This document shows, piece by piece, positions 3,233 through 60,090 of a DNA stretch of 64,000 bases. A model generated the notes under the pieces. It did not search any database, had not been told where the DNA came from, and was given only the letters and a program-made list of their open reading frames with translations. The stretch lies in the NCBI GenBank assembly GCA_024239075.1, contig JANBVI010000066.1:21600-85599 (forward strand), in the 5' to 3' direction. The translations under genes and the position numbers were made by a program. Origin of the DNA: Fischerella sp. CENA71. Lineage in GTDB: Bacteria; Cyanobacteriota; Cyanobacteriia; Cyanobacteriales; Nostocaceae. Each line of letters begins with the position of its first letter. The stretch's first letter is position 1.

Positions 3233-4162
3233 ATGTGGTTAAAATTTGGTGTAAATTCCGACGGTAATTTAGTAAGTATTGAAGATGTTACCAGGGGAAA
3301 AACTTCACTAAAATGTCCCTATTGTGGTAGTGGACTAACTGCTAAAAAAGGTAAAGTCAAAGAGCATCATTTTGCTCATAACCACGAAACTTGCCGTCGG
3401 GTTGCTAAGGGTGAGTTTCCAGTTTTACCATTTTATGACAACTTTAATATCCATGTATCTAGTAAGGATTTAGAGCAATTAAAACTACTTTGGCAAGAGT
3501 ATGGCTCAAAAAATTACCCAATTGATGCTCACGTTTGTTTTCCTGGTTTATTAAAAGCAGGGATGTTGAGGAAAAATGTCTACACAGTTTCCAAAGCTTA
3601 TGAATTTACTAATTTAGGTAAAATTCCTGTTGGCGCATTAGAGCTAATGCACTTTAACGAAGTGCAAGAGCCATTATTGCAGAGTAAATTACTAAAACTA
3701 GAGCTATCTGTAGCACATGCGAAACACAAAAAATCTCCAGACTTATCATATAAGCTAACTGATTTACAACTGTATCGCGCCCAACTCAAACGCATTTTAT
3801 CTTGTACTCTGTATTTTTTAGAGATTCAAACTTCAAAGAATACTTTATACAAAATAGGAGTCACTACAAGACCGATTAAAGAGCGAATAGCAGAAATCAA
3901 ACAAGATTTGCTTGCCCATTATCAAACTGTTGCTCCTGTGGTGCTAGGAAGTTGGAATCACCGAGGAAATGTAGAAAAGTATTTTAAACACCGCTATCGG
4001 AAATTTAATCACCCCATTGGTAGTTTGACAGAATACTATAAATTCAATTGTGATGATATCAAAACCGTGTTGTCTGACCTACAACAGATGAAACCAAAAG
4101 TACTATCTCCACATGAAATAGATATTCTTGAAGACAAACCTAGCCTTGTCATTATGCAATAG
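3233..4162 (+). CDS. CoiA-like zinc-site protein fused to a GIY-YIG/T5orf172-type domain
   Basis: The N-terminus has a CoiA-like metal site: CPYC at residues 28-31, HHFAH at 45-49 and Cys54. The middle is helical. From residue ~190 the sequence LYFLEIQTSKNTLYKIGVTT followed by RPIKERIAEI matches the T5orf172/GIY-YIG nuclease fold, with a later NVEKYFKHRY segment. The combination suggests a DNA-processing enzyme, perhaps acting on incoming single-stranded or phage DNA. The gene is alone, 340 bp after the acyltransferase and 174 bp before an HNH nuclease gene on the same strand. Nuclease activity is inferred from the fold only. Confidence 0.72.
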   Translation: MWLKFGVNSDGNLVSIEDVTRGKTSLKCPYCGSGLTAKKGKVKEHHFAHNHETCRRVAKGEFPVLPFYDNFNIHVSSKDLEQLKLLWQEYGSKNYPIDAHVCFPGLLKAGMLRKNVYTVSKAYEFTNLGKIPVGALELMHFNEVQEPLLQSKLLKLELSVAHAKHKKSPDLSYKLTDLQLYRAQLKRILSCTLYFLEIQTSKNTLYKIGVTTRPIKERIAEIKQDLLAHYQTVAPVVLGSWNHRGNVEKYFKHRYRKFNHPIGSLTEYYKFNCDDIKTVLSDLQQMKPKVLSPHEIDILEDKPSLVIMQ

Positions 4163-6212: not shown

Positions 6213-6854
6213 ATGATTATCGGGCTGACTAACCAAAAGGGGGGCGCGGGGAAAACCACTGTATCTGGGCATCTGGCATACTGGTTAAGCCAACGCGGGA
6301 CAGTGATTGTTGTAGATGCAGACGCACAGCAGAGCAGTACAAACTGGATGAAAGACCTGCAACTGCCGTGTAAAACAATGATAGACCCGGATGATTTGTT
6401 TGATGAACTTCCAGTGCTGGCAGAACAATATGATGCTGTAGTTGTGGACGGACCAGGTAGTTTGAGTGAAACGACAAAAGCAATTTTATCCAGATGTGAT
6501 CTAGCTCTAGTACCCTGTAAACCAGCAGGGTTAGATATGCACAGTACATCCAAGATGGTACGAATATTGCGACAAGCCAGAGAATTACGTTCAGGAATGC
6601 CCCATGTTGGTTTGTTCCTCAACCAAGCCAAAAAAGGAACTGTATTACTTAAGGATGCTCAACGCGCTCTCTCAGAAAAAAATACGGGGTTTCCTTTACT
6701 AAAAACAATGGTGTATGACCTTCAGGTAATTGCCGACGCACCAGGGCAAGGAACCACCGTTTGGGGACTACCCGGTGCAACAGCCAAACGCGCAGCCAAA
6801 GACTTTGAGGAACTTTTTACTGAAGCCTTGGGGGTAGCCAATGGCAAGAGATAG
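6213..6854 (+). CDS. parA: ParA-family partition ATPase, 213 aa
   Basis: A small (type Ib-like) ParA. It has the deviant Walker A KGGAGKTT at residues 9-16, a VVDADAQQS switch (residues 33-41) and a VVVDGPGS Walker B region. There is no N-terminal HTH, as expected for the short class in which repression is done by the partner. ParA would form a DNA-bound gradient that pulls ParB-parS complexes and so segregates the replicon. It starts a long rightward gene block, and the parB start overlaps its 3' end by 14 bp, so translation is likely coupled. Confidence 0.93.
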   Translation: MIIGLTNQKGGAGKTTVSGHLAYWLSQRGTVIVVDADAQQSSTNWMKDLQLPCKTMIDPDDLFDELPVLAEQYDAVVVDGPGSLSETTKAILSRCDLALVPCKPAGLDMHSTSKMVRILRQARELRSGMPHVGLFLNQAKKGTVLLKDAQRALSEKNTGFPLLKTMVYDLQVIADAPGQGTTVWGLPGATAKRAAKDFEELFTEALGVANGKR

Positions 6855-7746
6855 AAGAATGGTAGAAGAATTTATCTTTAGGGATGATGCTAACCAGACT
6901 AAGGCTACTATGCCCCTAAGTTTGATTGTGCTACCCCAGGAGGAACTGCGCTACTACATCGACCCAGAAGAAGTAGAAAAAATTGTTGCTTCTGCTAGAA
7001 AAAACGGCATTCTGGAACCGCTTTTAGTTCGTCCTATCCCTGGTAGTGAGCAACATGAAGTAGTAGCAGGGGCGAAACGCTACAGAGCAGCCCAGATTCT
7101 GGAACTTGCAGAAGTCCCTGTTGTTGTCCGCGAACTTAATGATGAAGATGCCCTAGAAATTGCCCTGATTGAAAACTTTGCTCGTTCGGCATTAACTGAC
7201 CTAGAAGAAACAGATGGAGTTGTGCGGCTGTTGGCTGTCAAGCTCAAAATCTCACCCCCAGAAGTACCACCACTGCTGCATCACATTCAAAACCAACAAC
7301 GAGGCAGAACTTCTGCCAATAACGTTATTGGCAATGATGTAATTGCTGTGGTGCAATCTTGTTTAACATCTTTAGGCAACATCAAACTAGATTCATTTAT
7401 CAGTAATCGCCTGCCCTTGCTCAATTTACCCAGCGACATTTTAGAAGTTTTACGCCAGGGGAAATTGGAGACAAGTAAAGCCAAAGCGATCGCACGAGTT
7501 AATGATGAAGAAACCAGAAAACAACTTCTTGAAGATGCTCTAGCCCACAATCTCTCGTTGAATGAAATTAAGCGCAAAATTAAAGAAATTGAGCAGCAGT
7601 CAAAAAGCGAGTCACCATCTTTAAAAGACCAAGTTGATGATACTTTCCAACGCTTCAAAAAAGCTAAAGTGTGGGATGACCCCAAGAAAAAAACCAAAGT
7701 AGAGAAGCTGTTGGCACAGTTAGAAGCATTGATGAAAGCAGATTAA
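6841..7746 (+). CDS. parB: ParB/RepB/Spo0J-family protein, 301 aa
   Basis: The N-terminal ParB/sulfiredoxin domain shows the CTP-binding-type boxes: EPLLVRPI at ~57-64, GAKRYRAAQ at ~76-84 (in place of the usual GERRYRA) and ENFARSAL at ~113-120. An HTH region and a Lys/Glu-rich C-terminus follow (KIKEIEQQ, then FKKAKVWDDPKKKTKVEK). It would bind parS sites and load ParA. The repeat cluster at 7953-8107, starting 207 bp after its stop, is a plausible binding region. It overlaps parA by 14 bp. Confidence 0.9.
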   Translation: MARDRRMVEEFIFRDDANQTKATMPLSLIVLPQEELRYYIDPEEVEKIVASARKNGILEPLLVRPIPGSEQHEVVAGAKRYRAAQILELAEVPVVVRELNDEDALEIALIENFARSALTDLEETDGVVRLLAVKLKISPPEVPPLLHHIQNQQRGRTSANNVIGNDVIAVVQSCLTSLGNIKLDSFISNRLPLLNLPSDILEVLRQGKLETSKAKAIARVNDEETRKQLLEDALAHNLSLNEIKRKIKEIEQQSKSESPSLKDQVDDTFQRFKKAKVWDDPKKKTKVEKLLAQLEALMKAD

Positions 7747-21188: not shown

Positions 21189-21776
21189 CTACGCCGAGCT
21201 TCCGCTTTCTCCTTGAATTACAGCAGCTGTAATTAAATGTGCCAAACGTAAAGCCTCTGGTACTTTGCCGCAGTCAGTTAAGCGTTGAAGCACCTTGGCT
21301 ACCACTGTAGGTTCTTCACCACTGACTTGGAAGAAAAAAGGTGAATAATCATAAATCGTACCCGCAAGCTGCAAAAGTTTCTGTCGCCGTTGAAAGTCTG
21401 GTAGACGACTCATAGCTTCATGGACAGCAACTAAATCAGGTTGGCGGCGCATCAAGGCAACGCAGGGTAATTGCAGGCGATCAGCTAATTCTGGAAGATT
21501 GACCAAATTAAACCCACCAAACCCAATTCCATCTAGTAACAAGATATGTAATTGTGGTAGAAATTTTCTTCCAATCAACAACTTGCAGATTACTTCTGTT
21601 GCATCTAATCCATCTTGTTGTACATGTCCCCACACCATACCTTCAAATCGTGTTCCTGCACACACCACCCCAGCGATGGATACATTGCCGCCAGCACCCC
21701 GAATGAAAGGGGCATCATCGAAACCGATCACACGAATAGTACGATTGAGTTTAAGTAAAGATTCGAGTTTCATCAA
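21189..21776 (-). CDS. DUF99-family protein (endonuclease dU type), 195 aa
   Basis: The family signature is clear: IRVIGFDDAPF at the N-terminus, AGVVCAGTRFEGMVWG, a DG(L)DATEVI segment, and LLLDGIGFGGFNLV near residue 85. DUF99 is related to endonuclease V-like folds and is named endonuclease dU in domain databases, though activity is unproven. The acidic residues D20, D21, D55 and D81 could bind metal. It is the last gene of a leftward operon headed by unknown genes and the Sak4-like ATPase, pointing to a DNA-processing role. Confidence 0.82.
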   Translation of the reverse strand: MMKLESLLKLNRTIRVIGFDDAPFIRGAGGNVSIAGVVCAGTRFEGMVWGHVQQDGLDATEVICKLLIGRKFLPQLHILLLDGIGFGGFNLVNLPELADRLQLPCVALMRRQPDLVAVHEAMSRLPDFQRRQKLLQLAGTIYDYSPFFFQVSGEEPTVVAKVLQRLTDCGKVPEALRLAHLITAAVIQGESGSSA

Positions 21777-31516: not shown

Positions 31517-31783
31517 CTACTTTTCCTCTAAGAATCTTCCGTTGACTGCGCCCCGCTTTTCGAGCGAGGAAATCTTATCAGCGATCGCATTCAGTATCGC
31601 CGGGATTTGATCTGGTGAAGCGAGGTTAATTTGATATACTGTATCTGCGTTAAAATGACTAGTTCCAATTGTTACGTTTAGCGACGGTTCGCCCAGCAGG
31701 TGCTTTACCAGCTTTGGCTTATCTTCTGCGTTCAGGCGATCGCATTTTTCCATTATTTCCTTTAGATCGTCTGAGACAACCAC
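31517..31783 (-). CDS. small hypothetical protein, 88 aa
   Basis: A short protein (LKEIMEKCDRLNAEDKPKLV, NADTVYQINLASPDQIPAIL). It follows the XRE regulator by 28 bp on the same strand, so it may be its partner in a small regulatory operon. No family is recognised. Confidence 0.58.
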   Translation of the reverse strand: MVVSDDLKEIMEKCDRLNAEDKPKLVKHLLGEPSLNVTIGTSHFNADTVYQINLASPDQIPAILNAIADKISSLEKRGAVNGRFLEEK

Positions 31784-31811: not shown

Positions 31812-32153
31812 TTATACTGCCATAGGTAAGTCTTTGTTGTCAGTCTTTATGCTTGCTGAACTTAAAGAAGCTGCCATAATTCGCAGTATCTCTGCTTTTT
31901 CATCATTGCTGGCGCGGAGAATTAGCGATTTTAAATCCCGATTTACTGGGTTCAATTGTTGAAAAAAATAATCACGCGCATCTGGTGGTAATGCGCTTAT
32001 AAGCTTTTCTAGGCTGTCGCTTTTGATCTGGTTTCGCCCCACCCTGAAATTAGAGATAGTTTGCTCTGTCAGTCCAGTTTTCTCCGCTAACCATGCGCCT
32101 TTAATTCCATATGCGGTCATGGTTTCGTTCAGAGCTTTACAAAATGTAACCAT
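31812..32153 (-). CDS. XRE-family repressor, 113 aa
   Basis: A Cro/CI-type HTH is evident: YGIKGAWLAEKTGLTEQTIS followed by NFRVGRNQIKSDSLEKLISA. The C-terminal half is helical. Transcribed away from the replication-type genes at 32320-34172, it probably represses them from the shared 166-bp intergenic region, like a phage or ICE master repressor. Confidence 0.85.
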   Translation of the reverse strand: MVTFCKALNETMTAYGIKGAWLAEKTGLTEQTISNFRVGRNQIKSDSLEKLISALPPDARDYFFQQLNPVNRDLKSLILRASNDEKAEILRIMAASLSSASIKTDNKDLPMAV

Positions 32154-32319: not shown

Positions 32320-32412
32320 ATGACAAATCAAAAGTTTTCTCAAACGTCTAAGGACGGATCTTTAGGCGGTTATGATGTGCTAGCTGCAACCAGTAAGGGG
32401 GTGCAGCTGTGA
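32320..32412 (+). CDS. 30-residue leader ORF coupled to the winged-helix gene
   Basis: ATG at 32320, preceded by GGAAAT, opens 30 codons (MTNQKFSQTSKDGSLGGYDV onward) and stops with TGA at 32410-32412. That stop overlaps the GTG start of the next gene (GTGA). This overlap is a standard coupling arrangement, so the leader is likely translated. It may regulate initiator output. Confidence 0.5.
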   Translation: MTNQKFSQTSKDGSLGGYDVLAATSKGVQL

Positions 32413-33200
32413 CAGAGCAGTATTATCGATTGACACTCAACGATGCGATCGCTCTCTATAAATCTAATGACCTCACGGCCAAAGGTGCATTAAAGATTTG
32501 GGTTCGCATTCGCTTTAAAACTGGCTGGGAAGGATTTATTGATACAAAAGAGCTGCGTGAACTATTTGATATGCGCCGTTCTACATTCTGGGAAGCGTTG
32601 GGAAAATTGGAAGAAGAGGGAGAAATAGAGCTATCTGAACCTCACAAAATACACATCAAACGTTTAAGTGATTCGTCCGGAATTCCGGACGATGTCCAAA
32701 ATTCCGGACAGGTGTCCGGAAAACCGGATGAGTGTCCGGAAAACCGGACAGGTGTCCAGAATTCCGGACAGGTGTCCGGAATTCCGGACGATGAATCTTT
32801 AAAACCCTCACAACAAGCGGAAAGTAGCGAACCCCCAGATTTAATTCAAGATTTATATCAATCTTTCATTAACTCTCTCTCAGAGAGCGAGAGAGAGAGT
32901 TTTTTAAAATTTGGGTCAGAAAAAGCAGCCAAGTTACCATCACCCCCACAGCTGCCGCGAAAATGGATTGAGAAGAACTGGGAAGACATACAACGGGAGT
33001 GGTACAAATCTAGAGGTCAAAATATTCCTAAAGCTTCAAGTTGGGAAGCTGACCCCCGTACAACCAAATGGCTTGAAATATGTGAGCTGACACAAAACCC
33101 ATTACAATTTGCAGAAGGTGACAAAGAAAAACTGGATTTTGTGAAATGGGCGCTCAAAACTTGCCAATTTAGCTGGCTGAAAAAGGAAGGTGAATCATGA
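32409..33200 (+). CDS. winged-helix replication-initiator-like protein with in-gene iterons, 263 aa
   Basis: Start is GTG at 32409 with AAGGGGGTG 6 bp upstream. Residues ~12-90 form a winged helix (YKSNDLTAKGALKIWVRIRF, LRELFDMRRSTFWEALGKLE, GEIELSEPHKIHIKRL). Residues ~89-128 are a low-complexity SSGIPDD/QNSGQVSG linker because six iterons lie in this part of the gene. The C-terminal domain (~155-263) has a PPQLPRKWIEKNWEDIQREW motif common in cyanobacterial plasmid proteins. The arrangement resembles lambda O, which binds iterons inside its own gene. I infer the initiator of this replicon or of an integrated element. Confidence 0.75.
   Translation: MTEQYYRLTLNDAIALYKSNDLTAKGALKIWVRIRFKTGWEGFIDTKELRELFDMRRSTFWEALGKLEEEGEIELSEPHKIHIKRLSDSSGIPDDVQNSGQVSGKPDECPENRTGVQNSGQVSGIPDDESLKPSQQAESSEPPDLIQDLYQSFINSLSESERESFLKFGSEKAAKLPSPPQLPRKWIEKNWEDIQREWYKSRGQNIPKASSWEADPRTTKWLEICELTQNPLQFAEGDKEKLDFVKWALKTCQFSWLKKEGES
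32675..32789 (+). repeat. six 16-bp palindromic iterons, candidate replication origin
   Basis: Units with consensus GTCCGGAATTCCGGAC start at 32675, 32694, 32714, 32734, 32754 and 32774. The first and last are perfect palindromes; the others differ by 1-4 bases (for example GTCCGGAAAACCGGAC). Spacing is 19 bp once and then exactly 20 bp four times. A 20-bp period does not keep the codon phase, so selection acts on DNA and not on the encoded residues. An AT-rich stretch follows (32795-32920). This is the classic layout of an iteron origin. Confidence 0.85.
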
Positions 33201-33703
33201 GTATTGATGATCTGCCTATCATTGAGCCGCTACCAATTCGCCCTGAAGAATTGAAGAAAGATAAAGAAATTTGGCAGCCCAAATGGCAATGCTTCTGCTG
33301 CCAAGACACAGGGAAAGTGCGATCGCACCTCGTACGCCTAGTAATGCCCAATTACAACTCAGAGCGTGACAGATTCCCTATCTGTCAAAACTGTAATTTG
33401 GGGCATGACTGGATACACCTTGAGGGCAATTACGATAATCGACTCACACCAGATATTTGCCGCAAGCTTGACTCTTATGCCCGTGAAGATTGGCACAAGA
33501 CTGTGCAGCTCCAGTTTGAGGTGAGAAGAAAGCAAATTGAACTAGTTACTAAAGAAATTTCCCAATCCCACAGCTTGAGAAAGAGCGATCGCACCGACAA
33601 TGACAACCGCGAGGTGCAACAGCAAAAAGCTGAAATAGAGGCCACTAGCCCGCAATCGTGGACAGCTATGAGGAAAGCTTACTTGGGAGGAGATGATGAG
33701 TAA
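33197..33703 (+). CDS. zinc-finger protein of the replication module, 168 aa
   Basis: Two CxxC pairs, CFCCQDTGKVR near residue 32 and CQNCNLGHDW near 63, would bind zinc. A charged coiled C-terminal region follows. It overlaps the initiator-like gene by 4 bp (ATGA) and so is translationally coupled. A role as a helicase loader or primase-like partner is possible but nothing catalytic is seen. Confidence 0.68.
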   Translation: MSIDDLPIIEPLPIRPEELKKDKEIWQPKWQCFCCQDTGKVRSHLVRLVMPNYNSERDRFPICQNCNLGHDWIHLEGNYDNRLTPDICRKLDSYAREDWHKTVQLQFEVRRKQIELVTKEISQSHSLRKSDRTDNDNREVQQQKAEIEATSPQSWTAMRKAYLGGDDE

Positions 33704-34172
33704 ATTTCAAGTAGGCGATAAAATCATTACCCCTGGTGGCAAAGTTGGTGAGATATGTCCCAGTTGCAAGCAACCACTACTGAATTTAAATGATGGTTGC
33801 GGCGTGTGCGGCTGGACACTCGAAAATTTCTTAGAGGAAAAGAAGGAGAGTAGAAAGCGATCACCCTCTTCAAAACGCAGACAGCGCAAGGGTTGTCTGT
33901 ATAAATACCTTGAAAATAAGAGGTTAAAAGATGGTCGTATTGTTTCTTACCCACGTGTAATAGGTGACAAACGCGACCCGGATAATCCGAAGCATTGGCG
34001 CTGGGGCTTTAACTGGGAGGAAAAAGTAGACGGGGAATGGAAGGGGCGGAGTATTGGATCGGTGCCGATAGGAGCGATCGCCATGATTCAATCAATGCAA
34101 AAACAAGGAGTTCCTTTAGAGGAAATAATTGAATTTATTAAGAAGTCAAAAAGCAAGTCGAGCAAATCTTAA
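33693..34172 (+). CDS. zinc-ribbon basic protein, 159 aa
   Basis: An N-terminal ribbon (CPSCKQPLLNLNDGCGVCGW) is followed by a very basic stretch (KKESRKRSPSSKRRQRKGCL) and a Trp-rich domain (PDNPKHWRWGFNWEEK, GEWKGRSIGSVPIGAIAMI). It looks like a nucleic-acid binding protein. It overlaps the previous gene by 11 bp; two adjacent ATG codons (33693 and 33696) follow GGAG. It probably closes the replication operon. Confidence 0.68.
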   Translation: MMSKFQVGDKIITPGGKVGEICPSCKQPLLNLNDGCGVCGWTLENFLEEKKESRKRSPSSKRRQRKGCLYKYLENKRLKDGRIVSYPRVIGDKRDPDNPKHWRWGFNWEEKVDGEWKGRSIGSVPIGAIAMIQSMQKQGVPLEEIIEFIKKSKSKSSKS

Positions 34173-37265: not shown

Positions 37266-38936
37266 CTAGAGCGGTAAAACTTGCTAGAAAAGACCAAAAA
37301 TCTTGTAATGTAAGGATTACAGATAAAACAGCTGCATCAATGGCAAGAAAAAATTTGAAACCAGAAGCGACATCCTCTGAGGTAGTTGAATGCGTACATA
37401 AGTACTGCCCAGAATGTGGTCAGAGAATGTGGAACGAGTACAACAATCTCAGGCACGTAAGAACTCTAAAAGGAGTAGTACAACTGAGACTAAAAATTCA
37501 TCGTTGCCAAAATATGTCGTGTCAGAGGTATCGAATTGCATATCGACCAGAGCAAGAAGGTTCATGGATACTACCCCATCATGAGTTTGGCTTAGATGTA
37601 ATCGCGTTGGTAGGAGCATTACGTTATCAAGAGCATAGAAGTGTTCCACAAATTCATGCTCATCTCAAGTCCAAAGGTGTATGTATCAGTGAACGCAGTG
37701 TGACTCACCTTCTAGCAAGATACGACGAATTAGTTTCGTTATGGCTGAGGGATGTTTCAAGATTAAAAGCAATAGTCAAAGAACAAGGGCGGTTGATATT
37801 GGCAATTGATGGGATGCAGCCAGAAGTTGGGCACGAAGTATTATGGGTAATTCGTGATTGTTTATCTGGAGAAATATTACTTGCAAAAACATTACTATCT
37901 TCAAAAACAGAGGATTTAGCAACATTGTTACTAGAAGTAAAAAATATACTAGATGTGCCAATAGACGGAGTTGTCAGTGATGGGCAACAATCAATACGTA
38001 AAGCTGTTGAGGTGGCATTGCCCGAAATCGCTCATGGCTTATGCCATTTTCATTACTTAAAAGAAGCAAGCAAAATAATATATGAGGCGGATAGACACGC
38101 AAAGAAAGAATTAAAAAAGCATGTGCGAGGTATACGAAAAATTGAAAATAGTATACCGGATAATGATCAAAAAATGGCAGCAGTTGTAAGCAAGTATTGC
38201 TCGGCAGTTCGCGGGTCATTAACAAGTGATGGTCGTCCGCCTTTAGATGCATCCGGTTTAAAATTACAAGAACGTTTGACACTAATAGAACAAAGTCTCC
38301 ATTCATTGGAGAAAAAAAAAGCTGCCACAACAATTAATCAAGCTCAAACAGATTATTTCTAAGGGTCTTGAACAAACTTCAGCATTATTTACTCCAATCA
38401 AATCGGCTTATGAGTTGGTTCATAAACCCGCAGATATTCTTGATCATGAAGATGATTTATTTGCTGATGAGGTAAAAGAAAACTATCAAGATTTAATTCA
38501 AAAAATGTCGGAGACAAAACACTTATTAGGTAGTTTCTCACAAGGTATAGAGCATTTTATCAAAGTCACAAAAAGTTATTGGTCTGGGCTTTTTCATTGC
38601 TATGAAATTGAGGATTTACCTAGAACCAAGAATGATTTAGAGCAGACTTTTGGAGTTTTACGTCATCACCAACGTCGTTGTACTGGTCGTAAAGTTGCAC
38701 CCTCATCACTCGTAATTCGCGGGTCAGTCCAATTAGCTTCTGCTGTTGCGACTAAATTTCGTTCTTTTACAGCAGAAGATTTATCACAAGTTTCTTTTTC
38801 TGATTTATCTGACCTACGTCATGATTTAAAAAAACATCATGAGGCGAGAATTGAGCAGTTTCAATTTCGGCGTAATCCCTCGCAATACTTGGCTAATCTT
38901 GAGAGTCTGCTTCTCTAGCAAGTTTTACCGCTCTAG
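37266..38936. mobile_element. insertion sequence with 27-bp inverted repeats (ISL3-like)
   Basis: The left end CTAGAGCGGTAAAACTTGC (27 bp, 37266-37292) is matched inverted at 38910-38936, with one mismatch. The element is 1671 bp. It is flanked by A-runs (8 A before, 7 A after) that may be a target duplication. A single transposase, broken in two frames, fills it. Family assignment is tentative: the zinc ribbon and the DDE pattern fit ISL3-like elements. Confidence 0.85.
37340..38918 (+). pseudogene. DDE transposase interrupted by a frameshift at an A9 run
   Basis: The first part (37340-38362) has a zinc ribbon (CPECGQRM), LAIDGMQ with the first Asp, and VVSDGQQSIRKAV with the second Asp. 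Reading then leaves the frame at GAG-A9-GCT (~38312-38321). The second part continues in the +1 frame with LPQQLIKLKQII, GLEQTSALFTPIKSAY and KNDLEQTFGVLRHH carrying the likely catalytic Glu, to the stop at 38918. With eight As instead of nine, one continuous protein of about 525 residues would result. It is either inactivated or expressed through slippage on the A run. Confidence 0.8.
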
Positions 38937-48996: not shown

Positions 48997-49490
48997 TTGA
49001 CTAAGACCGTCATAATAATGCTGGCATCATTCTACCAAAAATTCTTAGAGAAATACCTAAATAAAGCACAGTTAATTACCCTAAAAATGTTAGTGTGGGT
49101 GCTACAAAATCAGAAGCAAGTCAAGTTAGAAAGGCTAGCGGCAACGCTACCATTACCAATACAACAAAATAGTCGGAGAAGGCATTTACAAAGATTTCTA
49201 ACTTTGAATGCTTTAAGTGTAGTACTGCTATGGTTTCCTATAATTGAAGAGATGATTGGCAGGCAAATCAAAGCTGGCTCACAGGTAATTATTGCCCTAG
49301 ATAGAACGCAATGGAAAGAAAAGAACGTGTTGATGGCGAGTGTGATTTACCAGAAAAGGGCATGGCCAATATATTGGTGCTTGTTAGAGAAAGATGGTAG
49401 TAGTAACCTCAGTGAACAGCAAAAAGTATTACGCCCAGTAATTCGACTATAAAAAAAATATAAATTAGTGATTATTGGGGACAGAGAATT
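48997..49490 (+). pseudogene. truncated IS4-type transposase
   Basis: The open part runs from 48997 to a TAA at 49452. It has ITLKMLVWVLQNQKQVKLER, PLPIQQNSRRRHLQRFL and VIIALDRTQWKEKNVLMASV with the first catalytic Asp. Just after the stop, another stretch reads LVIIGDREFGA with the second Asp, and similarity then breaks off where IS1 sequence begins at about 49498. The C-terminal half is missing. Confidence 0.75.
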
Positions 49491-49497
49491 CGGAGCA

Positions 49498-49942
49498 TCA
49501 CGCAATTGATGTCCAGCTTCTCTAAGAAAGTGGATCACGGTTGTATGGTGGATCTCGGTGACTCGTTCAATACCCCGTAGTCCCATACCATTGAGATACA
49601 TCTTGATGCACAACTGCTTGACCACATTTGAATCACGCCAAGGACGGTAGACTTCGAGGAACTGGCGACCACACTGCTTGCACTTGTAGCATTGCCTGTT
49701 TCGACGATGCCCATTTTTAGTAGTTTGATTTGAGTTGTATTGAGGACACTTCATTCTTCTATTGTGCCAAATCAAGCATTACTCTTTCAGCAACGCCGAA
49801 AATTGAAAGAAATCATTTGACACTGCGAACAAGAATAAAACGATTACAGCACCAAACTATTTGCTTTTCCAAATCAATTTTTATGCATGATTTACTGATT
49901 GGGTTATTCATTAGCAAGTATGAATTTGGAGTAGAAATCTAA
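49498..49942. pseudogene. rearranged IS1-type transposase, halves in opposite orientation
   Basis: On the minus strand (49754 leftward) the InsA-like part reads MKCPQYNSNQTTKNGHRRNR, CYKCKQCGRQFLEVYRPW and GIERVTEIHHTTVIHFLREA. Beyond 49776 on the plus strand the typical InsB C-terminus appears, ERNHLTLRTRIKRLQHQTIC followed by FSKSIFMHDLLIGLFISKYE. The middle with the DDE core is missing and the halves face opposite ways, so an inversion or two insertions must be assumed. Confidence 0.7.
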
Positions 49943-55833: not shown

Positions 55834-56718
55834 TTAAACAGACAATAATCCATTAAGGTAAGCACAACGATGGGCCAGAACCTGAGGTACATTTTCCCGC
55901 TTCCACTGCGCTCCAGAAATCTTAGTTCGACGGTCAACCTGTTTAACGGCAGATTCAACTGAGCCAGATCCAATCGAACAGATTTGTTCTGCTTGATGGT
56001 ACTCGTAATTGATAATGCGATCGCTATGTTTATCAAGATAATGGCAGAAATTTTGTGCTTGTTTATCCTGACAATCAGTAAATAAGGCTTTAGCTGCCTC
56101 AACCTGACCTTTCCATAGTAGAGTGCTTGCTTGTTTCAAGGGTTTGAGCGAACCCCCGACTTTATAGAGGTTTTCCATTAAATGGAACCAATCAAGTACT
56201 TCTCGACGTTGTGTATCAGGTGCTAGTTGGTTAATGATATTCCAAATGCCATCATGTCCATCGCCAATACAAGTAATTGTGCTAGCAAGTGGCTGGTCAT
56301 TAACCCAATCAATCACAACCTGATTATCCTGAAATGAAGTTCCAACTATTCCCAGATGATGCAAGCTAATTGCTTTATAGCCGAGCCACGCACACATTTC
56401 ACCAGGTTGAGTCCGAATGCGGATGTTTCCACCATCAACACTTAATTCTTCTACTGTCTGTTGTGATGTTGGTAATTCAAAGTTCTGACGATGCACTAAT
56501 CTCTGTTGACTGCTGCGGGAAACTTCTACACCTGTAAAAAATTTCACATCTGATGCTGCATCTTCATAGCTGACATTCGCACTTACCCGCAAACAGCAAG
56601 TTTCTAAATATGGGCTTAGTTGACTGCTCGGTGCGACTTCTAACTCAATAGCTTGCTTGCTTGTTATTGGCAATTCTCCAAGGATGCTTTTGATTCGCCG
56701 TTGGTACGGGATCTCCAA
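55834..56718 (-). CDS. ISKra4-type transposase, 294 aa
   Basis: Key segments are EELSVDGGNIRIRTQPGEMC with the first catalytic Asp, ITCIGDGHDGIWNIINQLAP with the second, EVLDWFHLMENLYKVGGSLK and the CSIGSGSVESAVKQVDRRTK and KISGAQWKRENVPQVL end, which carries the conserved Glu. This is the ISKra4 pattern known from cyanobacteria. The protein seems complete from MEIPYQRR. Flanking element ends are not clear; a 10-bp hairpin at 56739-56763 (CGCTTTCGCC/GGCGAAAGCG) lies on the 5' side and may be subterminal. Confidence 0.82.
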   Translation of the reverse strand: MEIPYQRRIKSILGELPITSKQAIELEVAPSSQLSPYLETCCLRVSANVSYEDAASDVKFFTGVEVSRSSQQRLVHRQNFELPTSQQTVEELSVDGGNIRIRTQPGEMCAWLGYKAISLHHLGIVGTSFQDNQVVIDWVNDQPLASTITCIGDGHDGIWNIINQLAPDTQRREVLDWFHLMENLYKVGGSLKPLKQASTLLWKGQVEAAKALFTDCQDKQAQNFCHYLDKHSDRIINYEYHQAEQICSIGSGSVESAVKQVDRRTKISGAQWKRENVPQVLAHRCAYLNGLLSV

Positions 56719-57208: not shown

Positions 57209-58567
57209 CGGTACTTAAACAAAACAGAAGGATAAAAAAGGCTATAATGCTTAATTAGCATAGCTTTCACGTTAAAAAAAGTTCATGAAAGAAACCACCC
57301 CCGCAGCCATGCCACCATGCTTTGAAAGATGGTGTCAAAAGTTTGATGATGTGTTTACTCATAAAGCTCAAAAAAGAGAGTTTAGACATTATTTAGGGGG
57401 ATTATTGGGAGAAAGTGAGAGAAAAAACTTATTTCAAATTGCTTCTAATGCCGTAGGTGTGACTTACCATCGATTACACCACTTTTTAACTGAAGCACCT
57501 TGGTCTAGTTCACAGGTGAATGAGCGTCGATTAGAAGTGATGAACAAGTGTAGTCAGACAAGAATCAGTAGAGGCTTTAGTTTAATAATTGATGATTCTG
57601 GTCATAGGAAGAGTGGTAATTTTACTACAGGAGTGGGAAGACAATATATCGGAGAAATTGGCAAAACAGACAATGGAATAGTAGTAGTAACAACACATTT
57701 ATATGATGGAAGAAAAAGCTTACCGTTAGATATAGAGTTATATCAGCACGCTGATTCCTTAGCTCAAGGGAAACAAGCTCCGGAATTTGAGAAGAAGCCA
57801 GAACTAGCAATCAAGTTAATAGATAAAACTCTAAATAGAAAATATCAACCTGGGATAGTAATTGTAGATTCTGGATATGGCAATAATACATCCTTCTTAT
57901 TAGAGCTAGAAAAGCGGGGATTGAAGTATTTAGGAGGATTAGCTAAAAATCGAAAGGTAAGTATTACTCTTCAAGATGAAATTCAACAAACAATTCGGCT
58001 GGATGAAGTAGCCAAGACTTTACCCAAAGAGGCTTTTAAGGAAATTAAACTAACCTTAGATAAGCCAAGAACAGTATGGGTGGTAACTAGAGAAGTAGAG
58101 ATATCACAACTCGTGGGAAAGCGAAATATTGCCATCGTCATGAACGCTGAAACTTTCTCTGAAGCTACTGATATTGATTATTTTATTACTAATGTTGGCT
58201 CATCAATTGTTACACCACAATGGATAGTTGATACTTATTCTCAACGGAATTGGGTAGAAGTTTTTTATAGGGAAGCCAAGGGATGGTTAGGAATCAAAGA
58301 ATATCAAGTTCGAGATAAAAAGAGTTTACTGCGCCATTTTATTTTGGTCTTTTGTGCCTACACTTTTGTTCTTTGGCATCAGTTGACTGGGGGTTTAAGA
58401 CGACGGTGGGCTAACAAACCTTTGAATACTTTTACTCAAGCTTTAGAAGCGTTTAGAACAGCCATGTCTTATCGATTTATTGATTGGTTGAACTTGAATC
58501 GTGACGTGTTTACTACTTACAAAGCTAGTTTGGGCTACATTTGGGCTTGATTTTTGTTTAAGTACCG
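57209..58567. mobile_element. IS701-family insertion sequence, intact
   Basis: 16-bp inverted repeats CGGTACTTAAACAAAA (57209-57224) and its inverse (58552-58567) bound a 1359-bp element. CTAA occurs directly before (57205-57208) and after (58568-58571), a 4-bp target duplication as expected for IS701. It is a recent, clean insertion. Confidence 0.92.
57285..58550 (+). CDS. IS701-family transposase, 421 aa
   Basis: A complete DDE transposase: FSLIIDDSGHRKSG (~97-110) gives the first catalytic Asp, GIVIVDSGYGNNT (~190-202) the second and NWVEVFYREAKGWLGIKEYQ (~324-343) the Glu. LRHFILVFCAYTFVLWHQL near the C-terminus is the family signature. It fills its element and should be functional. Confidence 0.92.
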   Translation: MKETTPAAMPPCFERWCQKFDDVFTHKAQKREFRHYLGGLLGESERKNLFQIASNAVGVTYHRLHHFLTEAPWSSSQVNERRLEVMNKCSQTRISRGFSLIIDDSGHRKSGNFTTGVGRQYIGEIGKTDNGIVVVTTHLYDGRKSLPLDIELYQHADSLAQGKQAPEFEKKPELAIKLIDKTLNRKYQPGIVIVDSGYGNNTSFLLELEKRGLKYLGGLAKNRKVSITLQDEIQQTIRLDEVAKTLPKEAFKEIKLTLDKPRTVWVVTREVEISQLVGKRNIAIVMNAETFSEATDIDYFITNVGSSIVTPQWIVDTYSQRNWVEVFYREAKGWLGIKEYQVRDKKSLLRHFILVFCAYTFVLWHQLTGGLRRRWANKPLNTFTQALEAFRTAMSYRFIDWLNLNRDVFTTYKASLGYIWA

Positions 58568-58571
58568 CTAA

Positions 58572-60090
58572 TCCAACTGCATGGGCACGAGTCAAAAATA
58601 CTTCTAATGATCCTTGTAGTTGGTAAATCAAAATCGTGGTGATGTCTCGTGGATTGTAGCGTATGACCATCCATTCAGAAGCATAGCCAGCCAGATGTTC
58701 TCCTTGGTAAGTTAGGTTAGCAAATTGGATATACCCACCTCGGTACACTACTCGTCGCGCTCGTCGCATCAGACAAATATCTAGTTCTCGCTCTCCAACT
58801 AGATCTGGCTGGGTCTTCATTAAAAGTCTGTAAAACTGGGCAGGCTTGTATTGGTATTATCCGATGGGCCAACGAGTCATCTTTGTTGAAGCCTGCCCAG
58901 TTTTACATGGATTTAACCAACGCTATACATCCAGCTTCCCAACGTCCAATCCGGGTTTGACCACCCATACGTGCATCTATGCTTTGGTTATAGCGATCCA
59001 CGATATAGCGAACAAGTAATTTTTCTAGTTGCAGTAGAGTCATACACGCTTGTTGTTCGGCTTTAGGCGGTCGTTTGCTTACATCACTACCTGTGTATCC
59101 TGGCAATGTTGAGAATAACTCACTATTGAATGTCCCAAATGGGCGTTCCACAATCCCACCATCTGATGGTTTACGACGTAAGCAGCAAACTATTCCTAAC
59201 GAAGTTGCTACTTGTTCTAGGTGCTGCGATTTGAAATCTTTTCCGGCATCGGTATACAAGTACTGTGGTATACCATATGTACCCCAACTTTGCTGCAATT
59301 CATAGGCTCCACTGTATTGCTTGGGTAGAATCGCATGGCGTAAGGCAAGACACACTACTTCTGCACTGGGGGCATCAAAGCCTAAATGCAGACCAACTAC
59401 ACAGCGTGAATAGCTATCAATTACAGTAGTTAACCAAGGTCTACCCAGTATTTCTCCTGATTGGTCTACAACTAAGACATCTACTTTGGTATGGTCACAT
59501 TGCCAAACTTGATTGCTCCATTCAACGCCAATTTCCATTCCTTCACGAGTTTTTATACTCAGTCGTGAACCTTTCCATCCAAGTGAACGCTTCTGTTGCC
59601 TTCGCTCGCCCTTCTCTATCTCTGGTTGCAACAACCGATACACGGTCATATGACTTGGATAATCATCTGTGCCAAGTTCTTGCGCTTGTACTTTCACTCG
59701 TACAAAGACCTGTGCTCGGCTCATGCGCCGCCCACCCCGATTTCCCTCACGATATGTTTTAAGAATAAAATCCTGCCAAAAGCCACTTATTTGCATTTGA
59801 CCATAATCGTCTCTTCGTTGACGATACAGTCCTGCCACACCATGCTCACGCCAAGCTTGCACTAGTCTTTGTAAACTACGAACACTAATACCTAATTTCA
59901 AAGCTGCTTGTTTTTGTACATGCCCATAATTTTCTGAGCCTTGGGCTGCCAACAAGTGTTGAATCACTTCGATTCGCTGCTGTACTTCAAAGGGCAACAC
60001 CTGTTTATCCTTACTCTCTTTCGCGTAAACAGCAGCCAAATCTTTTTTAATCTTGGCTTTTCCTCGCTTGATCTGCTTAGACATTTTCAT
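58572..60090 (-). pseudogene. tnsB: broken TnsB transposase of the type V-K CRISPR-associated transposon kind
   Basis: The first open frame (58903-60090, 395 aa) has an N-terminal HTH region, VWQCDHTKVDVLVVDQSGE (D199), YLYTDAGKDFKSQHLEQV (D281) and GGIVERPFGTFNSELFSTLP (E315). It ends IGRWEAGCIALVKSM. A 79-bp hairpin element then interrupts it. The sequence resumes as GERELDICLMRR, YRGGYIQFANLTYQGEHLAG and FLTRAHAVGL before the IS701. This is the order of V-K TnsB (for example ShCAST). The rest of the C-terminus, tnsC, tniQ and cas12k are absent. The catalytic core is intact but the C-terminal TnsC-binding part is lost. Confidence 0.88.
58829..58907. mobile_element. 79-bp palindromic hairpin element, copy 1 (in tnsB)
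   Basis: TGTAAAACTGGGCAGGCTT (58829-58847) is perfectly inverted at 58889-58907, 19 bp per arm, around a 41-bp centre that contains GATGGGCCAA. It supplies the TAA that ends the first tnsB frame. A second element of similar size, arms and centre is at 60140-60219. Confidence 0.8.

Follow-up and report, generated by a model that had tools for sequence, protein, structure and literature searches.

A probable family of cyanobacterial plasmid replication initiators with palindromic iterons inside the gene and exchangeable cassettes

The window analysed here, a stretch of 64,000 nucleotides from Fischerella sp. CENA71 (G000:C66:21600-85599 of an 85,599-base contig), carries a gene which, with a probability that we put at about 0.83, is the replication initiator of a cyanobacterial plasmid with its origin inside the gene, the winged helix and its array on the one hand and the core, tail and partner gene on the other being exchangeable cassettes. 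The N-terminal winged helix would bind six palindromic iterons directly downstream in its own gene, the array-encoded stretch of the protein would serve mainly as a linker, and the core and tail would bring in the replicative helicase, in the window by way of an overlapping zinc-finger gene. The window module would probably use the host DnaB and other members a plasmid-encoded DnaB, while the product of a divergent XRE gene probably sets the copy number. The first cassette (winged helix and array) would thus be the one that confers specificity, the second would comprise core, tail and partner gene, and the two appear often to be joined at a CT/GA hairpin. The best reading is that of a new cyanobacterial initiator family, built like lambda O and RepA_N without detectable homology to them; initiators of the in-gene-origin kind are themselves already known. 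An iteron origin inside a winged-helix initiator gene had been proposed in the initial annotation of this DNA, and the sequence evidence supports that proposal. The features concerned are the following, in window coordinates.

6213..7746, plus strand: partition genes for ParA and ParB, located on the contig of the initiator
31517..31783, minus strand: small gene beside the XRE gene, 62% identical over 77 residues in pANSO36C
31812..32153, minus strand: divergent XRE-type gene, candidate repressor
32409..33200, plus strand: candidate initiator gene, GTG start, 263 aa, without named family
32409..32672, plus strand: N-terminal winged-helix coding part, residues 1-88, putatively origin-binding
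32675..32690, plus strand: iteron 1, GTCCGGAATTCCGGAC
32694..32709, plus strand: iteron 2, GTCCAAAATTCCGGAC
32714..32729, plus strand: iteron 3, GTCCGGAAAACCGGAT
32734..32749, plus strand: iteron 4, GTCCGGAAAACCGGAC
32754..32769, plus strand: iteron 5, GTCCAGAATTCCGGAC
32774..32789, plus strand: iteron 6, GTCCGGAATTCCGGAC, with the same letters as iteron 1
32870..33197, plus strand: conserved core and C-terminal tail (tail class 0)
32871..32905, plus strand: inverted repeat of CT/GA type (arms at 32871-32881 and 32891-32901) with six T, where the exchangeable modules meet
33197..33703, plus strand: zinc-finger partner gene, 168 aa, overlapping the initiator gene by 4 nt and occupying the place that a DnaB-type gene has in other members
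33693..34172, plus strand: third module gene, 159 aa, whose relatives include much longer genes elsewhere

Six 16-bp palindromes are indeed present in frame just after the winged-helix part, at steps of 19, 20, 20, 20 and 20 nt. They are read in three phases of the ORF (2, 0, 2, 1, 0 and 2 for iterons 1-6) and encode differing peptides (SSGIPD, VQNSGQ, VSGKPD, CPENRT, VQNSGQ and VSGIPD), which bears out the earlier remark that the residues shift in phase while the DNA motif persists. If up to three mismatches are allowed, the pattern GTCCGGAANNCCGGAC is matched 14 times in the window, both strands counted, where 1.31 matches are expected and 100 shuffles reach 5 at most; the six units, each matched on both strands, account for 12 of these, and because the remaining two are isolated three-mismatch sites, a second array is absent from the window. 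Codon-preserving shuffles of the ORF produced at most 3 copies (10 shuffles) or 2 (5 shuffles), against the real 6. As to the protein, its winged helix gives weak GntR and CvfB_WH Pfam matches below the cut-off; a MarR_2 match above the cut-off is found in one relative (L063), and in the PDB the profile of the family hits winged-helix regulators, at a best E of 0.002. The absence of a named family for this initiator, likewise noted before, holds in our scans, in which PHROG yielded no family for the window protein and Pfam and NCBIfam none above cut-off.

Relatives were collected as the 84 distinct ORFs of the fetched loci that match a profile of the C-terminal core, a 414-aa ORF of L088 being a doubtful member and a Flavobacterium locus (L012, 43% over 42 residues) being excluded. 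Clustering on the last 58 residues of 78 ORFs, the six of fewer than 200 aa having been excluded, separates four main tail classes (0-3) and a class 4; tails of 95 residues are unsuited to this purpose, since the shared core merges the classes. Tail class is coupled to the gene that follows. A zinc-finger gene lies within 1 kb downstream in all 40 members of class 0, mostly as the overlapping next gene, and a DnaB-type gene within the same distance in 35 of the 36 members of classes 1-3; the one member without it is the doubtful L088 ORF, which lies at the end of its locus. Class 4 consists of two Picosynechococcus members with neither a zinc-finger nor a DnaB-type gene downstream. The next gene in Trichormus variabilis plasmid B is DnaB (TIGR00665, E 4.5e-164), and the other DnaB-type genes were assigned by BLAST clustering with it. 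The initial annotation described the module as lambda O-like; across the family the partner position is filled by DnaB in 35 members and by the zinc-finger gene in 40, roughly equal numbers, and in the window the gene found there is the zinc-finger gene.

The zinc-finger protein is cysteine-rich and conserved, with 12 invariant columns in 35 sequences; it has no named family, and a PDB profile search gave a best E of 2.2. From the position of its gene we infer that it may be an adaptor or loader of the host helicase. Two zinc-finger genes had been thought to complete the module, and of these the first stands (33197-33703), but the second (33693-34172) has longer genes for relatives and no named family, five of these longer relatives having no Pfam match at E 0.1.

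The question then arises whether the array could be an operator and the winged-helix protein a regulator of the downstream genes, the true initiator lying elsewhere on the plasmid. The winged-helix domains do resemble MarR and GntR regulators and the array does lie upstream of the partner gene. However, up to six evenly spaced palindromes in a coding frame are unusual for an operator, the coupling of three tail classes to DnaB-type genes tells against a mere regulator, and so does the distribution of CyRepA, a known replication protein of cyanobacterial plasmids: it is present in all 12 genomes tested, and in 9 of them, that of the window included, the contig with the best family match is without it, with the proviso that in draft genomes a contig need not equal a whole replicon. 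In the other three, CyRepA and the best family match share one plasmid-sized contig (G053:C1, G074:C4 and G127:C1), and CyRepA also occurs on the chromosome alongside chromosomal members of the family (e.g. in G004, G059 and G074). In the window's own genome CyRepA was located at four places, on contigs C55, C40, C16 and C74. We consider the operator explanation unlikely.

The surroundings of the gene in the window are those of a plasmid. When 25 proteins encoded in the window were compared with two complete plasmids, 16 had a match in pANSO36C (69.9 kb) and 17 in pNLP3 (58.7 kb). The gene order is largely that of the window, save that ParA and one other gene are inverted and that a T5orf172 gene is displaced in pNLP3; the contig itself showed no overlapping ends. 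Identity with pANSO36C and pNLP3 is 76-85% for the integrase, TrwB-like, TolC-like and 9858 genes, whereas the initiator is 49% identical over 177 residues to that of the former and 41% to that of the latter, and therefore related backbones carry different putative origin cassettes. The divergent gene of the initial annotation is present, but its designation as an XRE repressor rests in Pfam on a match below the cut-off (HTH_26, 20.2 bits against 22), along with a PHROG transcription regulator match at E 5.4e-6. Of 80 loci, 59, among them the window, have a divergent homologue upstream, and no match was found in pANSO36C or pNLP3 at E 1e-5. A cluster of 15 loci, to which the window belongs, falls at about the place of the small gene at 31517..31783.

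Several other genes of the window deserve mention in their own right. An Endonuclease dU family gene (PF01949, E 1.4e-50) lies at 21189-21776, and a CoiA_N and T5orf172/MUG113 protein, 74% identical in pNLP3, is encoded at 3233-4162. Transposase-like ORFs were recognised by eye at 37340-38918, 49347-49775, 55834-56718, 57285-58550 and 58903-60090, and this part of the contig seems to have gathered insertion sequences.

In a tblastn search the initiator matches 15 plasmid records, every one from a cyanobacterial genus, and none of 50,697 phage records; the zinc-finger protein likewise has matches in 20 plasmid records and in none of the same phage records. The initiator has a match at E <=0.001 in 63 of 193 genomes of the window's taxonomic family, its own included, and in a sample of the phylum the profile matches at E <=1e-5 in at least 33 of 386 genomes, a lower bound because at most six candidates were scored per genome. 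Chromosome-sized contigs carry some of the members (e.g. L053, L078, L088, L105, L108, L111, L116 and L121-L123), of which L122 is close to a transposase gene. Such members, together with an order of initiator followed by partner or DnaB that is like lambda O-P (where P has a loader role) and P22 18-12, could suggest a phage or prophage replication module of that kind and not a plasmid one; against this stand the counts of phage and plasmid records just given, the lack of any PHROG family for the initiator and the backbone common to complete plasmids, and we hold this explanation to be very improbable. As side observations, TnsA-like and Mu-type transposase domains occur near initiators at L113:8339-11092 and L122:1104-2945, possibly representing Tn7-like insertions, and at L065:4280-4450 (pAQ5) PLSDB names a 171-bp gene 'ACT-82 beta-lactamase' at 100% identity; since it measures only 171 bp, a resistance gene is unlikely there and the entry is probably a database artefact.

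The array recurs throughout the family. Calling an array where at least three copies of a 13-mer occur with up to two mismatches, on either strand and at steps of 16-45 nt, we find one after the N-terminal domain in 72 of the 84 ORFs, with at least five copies in 53, and starting at a median of residue 117 (range 85-224). These counts are not independent, because the ORFs are related, the 72 reducing to 25 clusters at 60% identity of the N-terminal domain (NTD). The other 12 ORFs were dropped for having fewer than three copies, fewer than 150 aa or an array in the first 200 nt; one of them, L019, has three copies yet is truncated, six are full-length members without a three-copy array (L010, L032, L033, L035, L097 and L123), and the rest are fragments or the doubtful L088 ORF. 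The initial annotation had asked whether each homologue carries repeats at the same place, and this is so for the 72, but the six full-length members speak against it in its strict form. The phylum search supplied 19 loci in which three or more copies occur in 16 of 22 matched ORFs, a count that carries no shuffle control; L165, from another family of organisms, has eight copies and a DnaB-type gene next to it.

The commonest array steps are 20 nt (143 intervals) and 21 nt (79). Arrays exceed all five synonymous shuffles in 67 of the 72 cases, and the five exceptions (L059, L008, L104, L100 and L121) are all among the 28 whose median step is a codon multiple. In the other 44 the median step does not correspond to a whole number of codons, and every one of them beats all five shuffles. 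These 44 arrays speak for the contention that the DNA is the selected object; in the 28 with codon-multiple steps peptide repeats could contribute. It is on these 28 arrays, and on the five not above shuffles, that one could build the notion that the repeats arose by recent tandem duplication or form a low-complexity linker, have no function as DNA and persist by chance or through selection on the peptide. We find this explanation barely credible given the 44 arrays out of register with the codons, the dyad symmetry of the motifs and the recurrence of position and period with unrelated motifs.

Other signatures that might accompany an origin were also sought. The A+T content of the 100 nt after the array exceeds the ORF mean by 0.013 (p 0.03) and that of the next 100 nt by 0.028, an excess too weak and unspecific for a specific AT-rich element after the array. 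GC skew in six replicons does not point to the array, its amplitude being clearly above block shuffles in only one of the six. Similarly, the differences between the window and its close relative L006 (units 4/96, spacers 2/19, NTD 11/264, following positions 4/99) do not demonstrate that the units are better conserved than their surroundings.

The motif follows the N-terminal domain. It differs by winged-helix type and is largely private to it, examples being GTCCGGAATTCCGGAC in the window and GGACAAAGTTGTCC, GTCTCAAAAATGAGAC, TTCTGGAANTCCAGAA and GTTTCCTATAGGAAAC in other types, and the consensus motifs of 25 representatives are dyad-symmetric (2.64 against 0.58, sd 0.18, for shuffled letters). 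Where the NTDs are at least 50% identical and the C-terminal domains (CTDs) less than 40%, the motif is common to 56 of 111 pairs, as opposed to 1 of 211 pairs with NTD identity below 35% and CTD identity of at least 50%, and 8 of 1583 pairs in which both domains are dissimilar. The Mantel correlation is 0.63 between NTD and motif and 0.22 between CTD and motif; at NTD identity above 80% the motif is common to 57 of 62 pairs, and it is kept in 41 of 58 pairs of the same NTD type with a different partner gene. The rule is not strict, because two or more motifs occur within one NTD cluster of 15 members (similarity 0.74 on average and 0.33 at the lowest). Nor is the correlation proof of binding, because physical linkage alone co-inherits the NTD and the array adjoining it and would yield part of the covariation.

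Some of the genes are mosaics, and their joints lie beyond the array. A scan not conditioned on the hairpin, in which breakpoints less than 150 nt from either ORF end were left out, gave 50 triples with 13 distinct recipients, not all of them independent. The breakpoint falls after the array in 13 of 13 recipients and, in 7 of the 11 with a recognised CT/GA repeat, within 11 nt of the start of that repeat. The window gene is itself a mosaic, being 96% identical to L006 through ORF nt 463 and then 88% identical to L007, both from Westiellopsis prolifica. The stretch 32871-32905 resembles an intrinsic terminator and yet stands in mid-gene.

In most of the relatives scored, the hairpin is kept beyond protein constraint. 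Among the 55 of 78 ORFs that have the corresponding protein motif, the other 23 being left out, the stability of the predicted RNA hairpin exceeds that in synonymous shuffles by a mean of 2.48 s.d., and 40 of 55 lie below -2; a stricter protein motif leaves 33 ORFs with a mean z of -3.03. Leucine at the hairpin is encoded by CTC in 49 of 55 ORFs, against 15% CTC among the leucine codons of the family. These hairpin and codon statistics ignore kinship. The stability holds in tail classes 0, 2 and 3, is weak in class 4 (mean -1.15), and in class 1 was scored in a single ORF (z 0). The hairpin may be a recombination joint, a part of the origin or an attenuator.

How, then, might such an initiator work? 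The likeliest mechanism is lambda O- or RepA_N-like, with the NTD on in-gene iterons and a C-terminal module that recruits the helicase. The parts of PMC5703833 that treat RepA_N of pSK41 describe a winged-helix NTD that binds repeats in the centre of its own gene, an origin-encoded central linker that is dispensable, and a CTD that forms a separate, host-facing module and binds DnaG primase; pPR9 has swapped NTD and origin and kept the CTD. The likeness is that here too the repeats sit inside the rep gene after the NTD, which would bind them. Unlike RepA_N, the present family shows a diversity of palindrome types and a hairpin where the modules join, and its tail classes go with one or the other of two partner genes; RepA_N (PF06970) gave no match at E <=1 in the window protein and seven relatives, although HMMER filters may hide weak matches. 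Lambda O, in the sections of PMC7466680 that concern it, has four iterons in mid-gene (six in O of Stx phages) and is followed by gene P. Neither PHROG nor Pfam gave a phage-O match for the window protein, and the family differs from lambda O in being plasmid-borne; no specific AT-rich tract was found after the array. By sequence, the family is to be placed outside both RepA_N and lambda O. Of the traits of iteron-regulated theta initiators in general, namely direct repeats bound by the initiator and autonomous replication driven by it, the repeats are the one observed here.

Among cyanobacterial plasmids, CyRepA and CyRepX are the replication proteins named in the relevant parts of PMC10899382 and PMC10079941. 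The DUF3854 of CyRepA (PF12965) has no match in the window protein; CyRepX, exemplified by Slr6031 and Slr6090, is described as helicase-like, which would set it apart from the window protein. Searches of open-licence literature turned up neither the family nor its sets of palindromes, the rule linking tail and partner, the joint at the hairpin or the foreign-NTD ORFs upstream of initiators that are described below.

One further feature of the loci may bear on why cassettes are exchanged. Counting ORFs in the same direction as the initiator with at least 30 bits to an initiator NTD, and leaving out the ORF of L073, which is itself a broken initiator, we find 18 ORFs directly upstream of initiators that match an initiator NTD. 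In 18 of 18 the best match is the NTD of another initiator and not that of the neighbour, the neighbour's following close behind in L089 (73 against 85 bits). Five are intact fusions (L078:6735-7409, L059:1910-2488, L084:5304-5870, L089:5315-5860 and L086:6795-7352), and the other 13 are shorter or interrupted, several being short remnants. The C-terminal domain of the five fusions carries GRIDLLTxTExIExK, a conserved pattern that we take to be PD-(D/E)XK-like and on which the label 'nuclease-like' is based; the Pfam, NCBIfam, PADLOC and PDB scans gave no family for this domain. It occurs in 36 of 193 genomes, also behind other N-termini, and had no match in the window's genome at E 1e-6, nor was a foreign-NTD ORF seen between the XRE gene and the initiator of the window. 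In 12 such loci, covered as stretches of 6-13 kb and not as whole replicons, the iteron type of the foreign NTD is absent from 10 and has a single match in each of the other two. Separately, a GIY-YIG-like domain is seen inside the initiators of L010, L018 and L009, after a leader resembling the MTEQHYR NTD type, the match passing the Pfam cut-off in L010 but not in the other two.

In the parts of PMC8263062 that deal with them, the replicons of PLE RepA are modular, NTD and origin co-varying, and ICP1 Odn is a nuclease with an initiator-like NTD whose cutting needs the iterons; Odn is phage-encoded, has a T5orf172 domain and targets a satellite. The putative nuclease-like ORFs differ from Odn in lying directly upstream of a different initiator and in having another, unnamed domain. 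By analogy, Odn-like upstream ORFs may be a cause of cassette exchange. An upstream ORF that combines the origin-binding domain of another plasmid with a nuclease-like domain would cut rival origins, and its own plasmid would be spared because its own iterons are of a different type. That plasmids swap winged-helix and iteron cassettes at the hairpin joint, driven by plasmid-encoded, origin-directed nucleases that cut rival origins, is a tentative proposal to which we would give somewhat less than even odds; if true, it would constitute a resident, inter-plasmid counterpart of ICP1 Odn.

For the replication proteins of large cyanobacterial plasmids, on which information is limited according to PMC10899382, the family would add one that comes in many natural types of specificity and probably in many compatibility groups of use for vectors. 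Since domain and iteron co-vary independently of tail and partner, the rules of recognition, of palindrome by winged helix and of helicase partner by tail, would be readable from natural variation, and the nuclease-like ORFs upstream make the cause of origin turnover testable.
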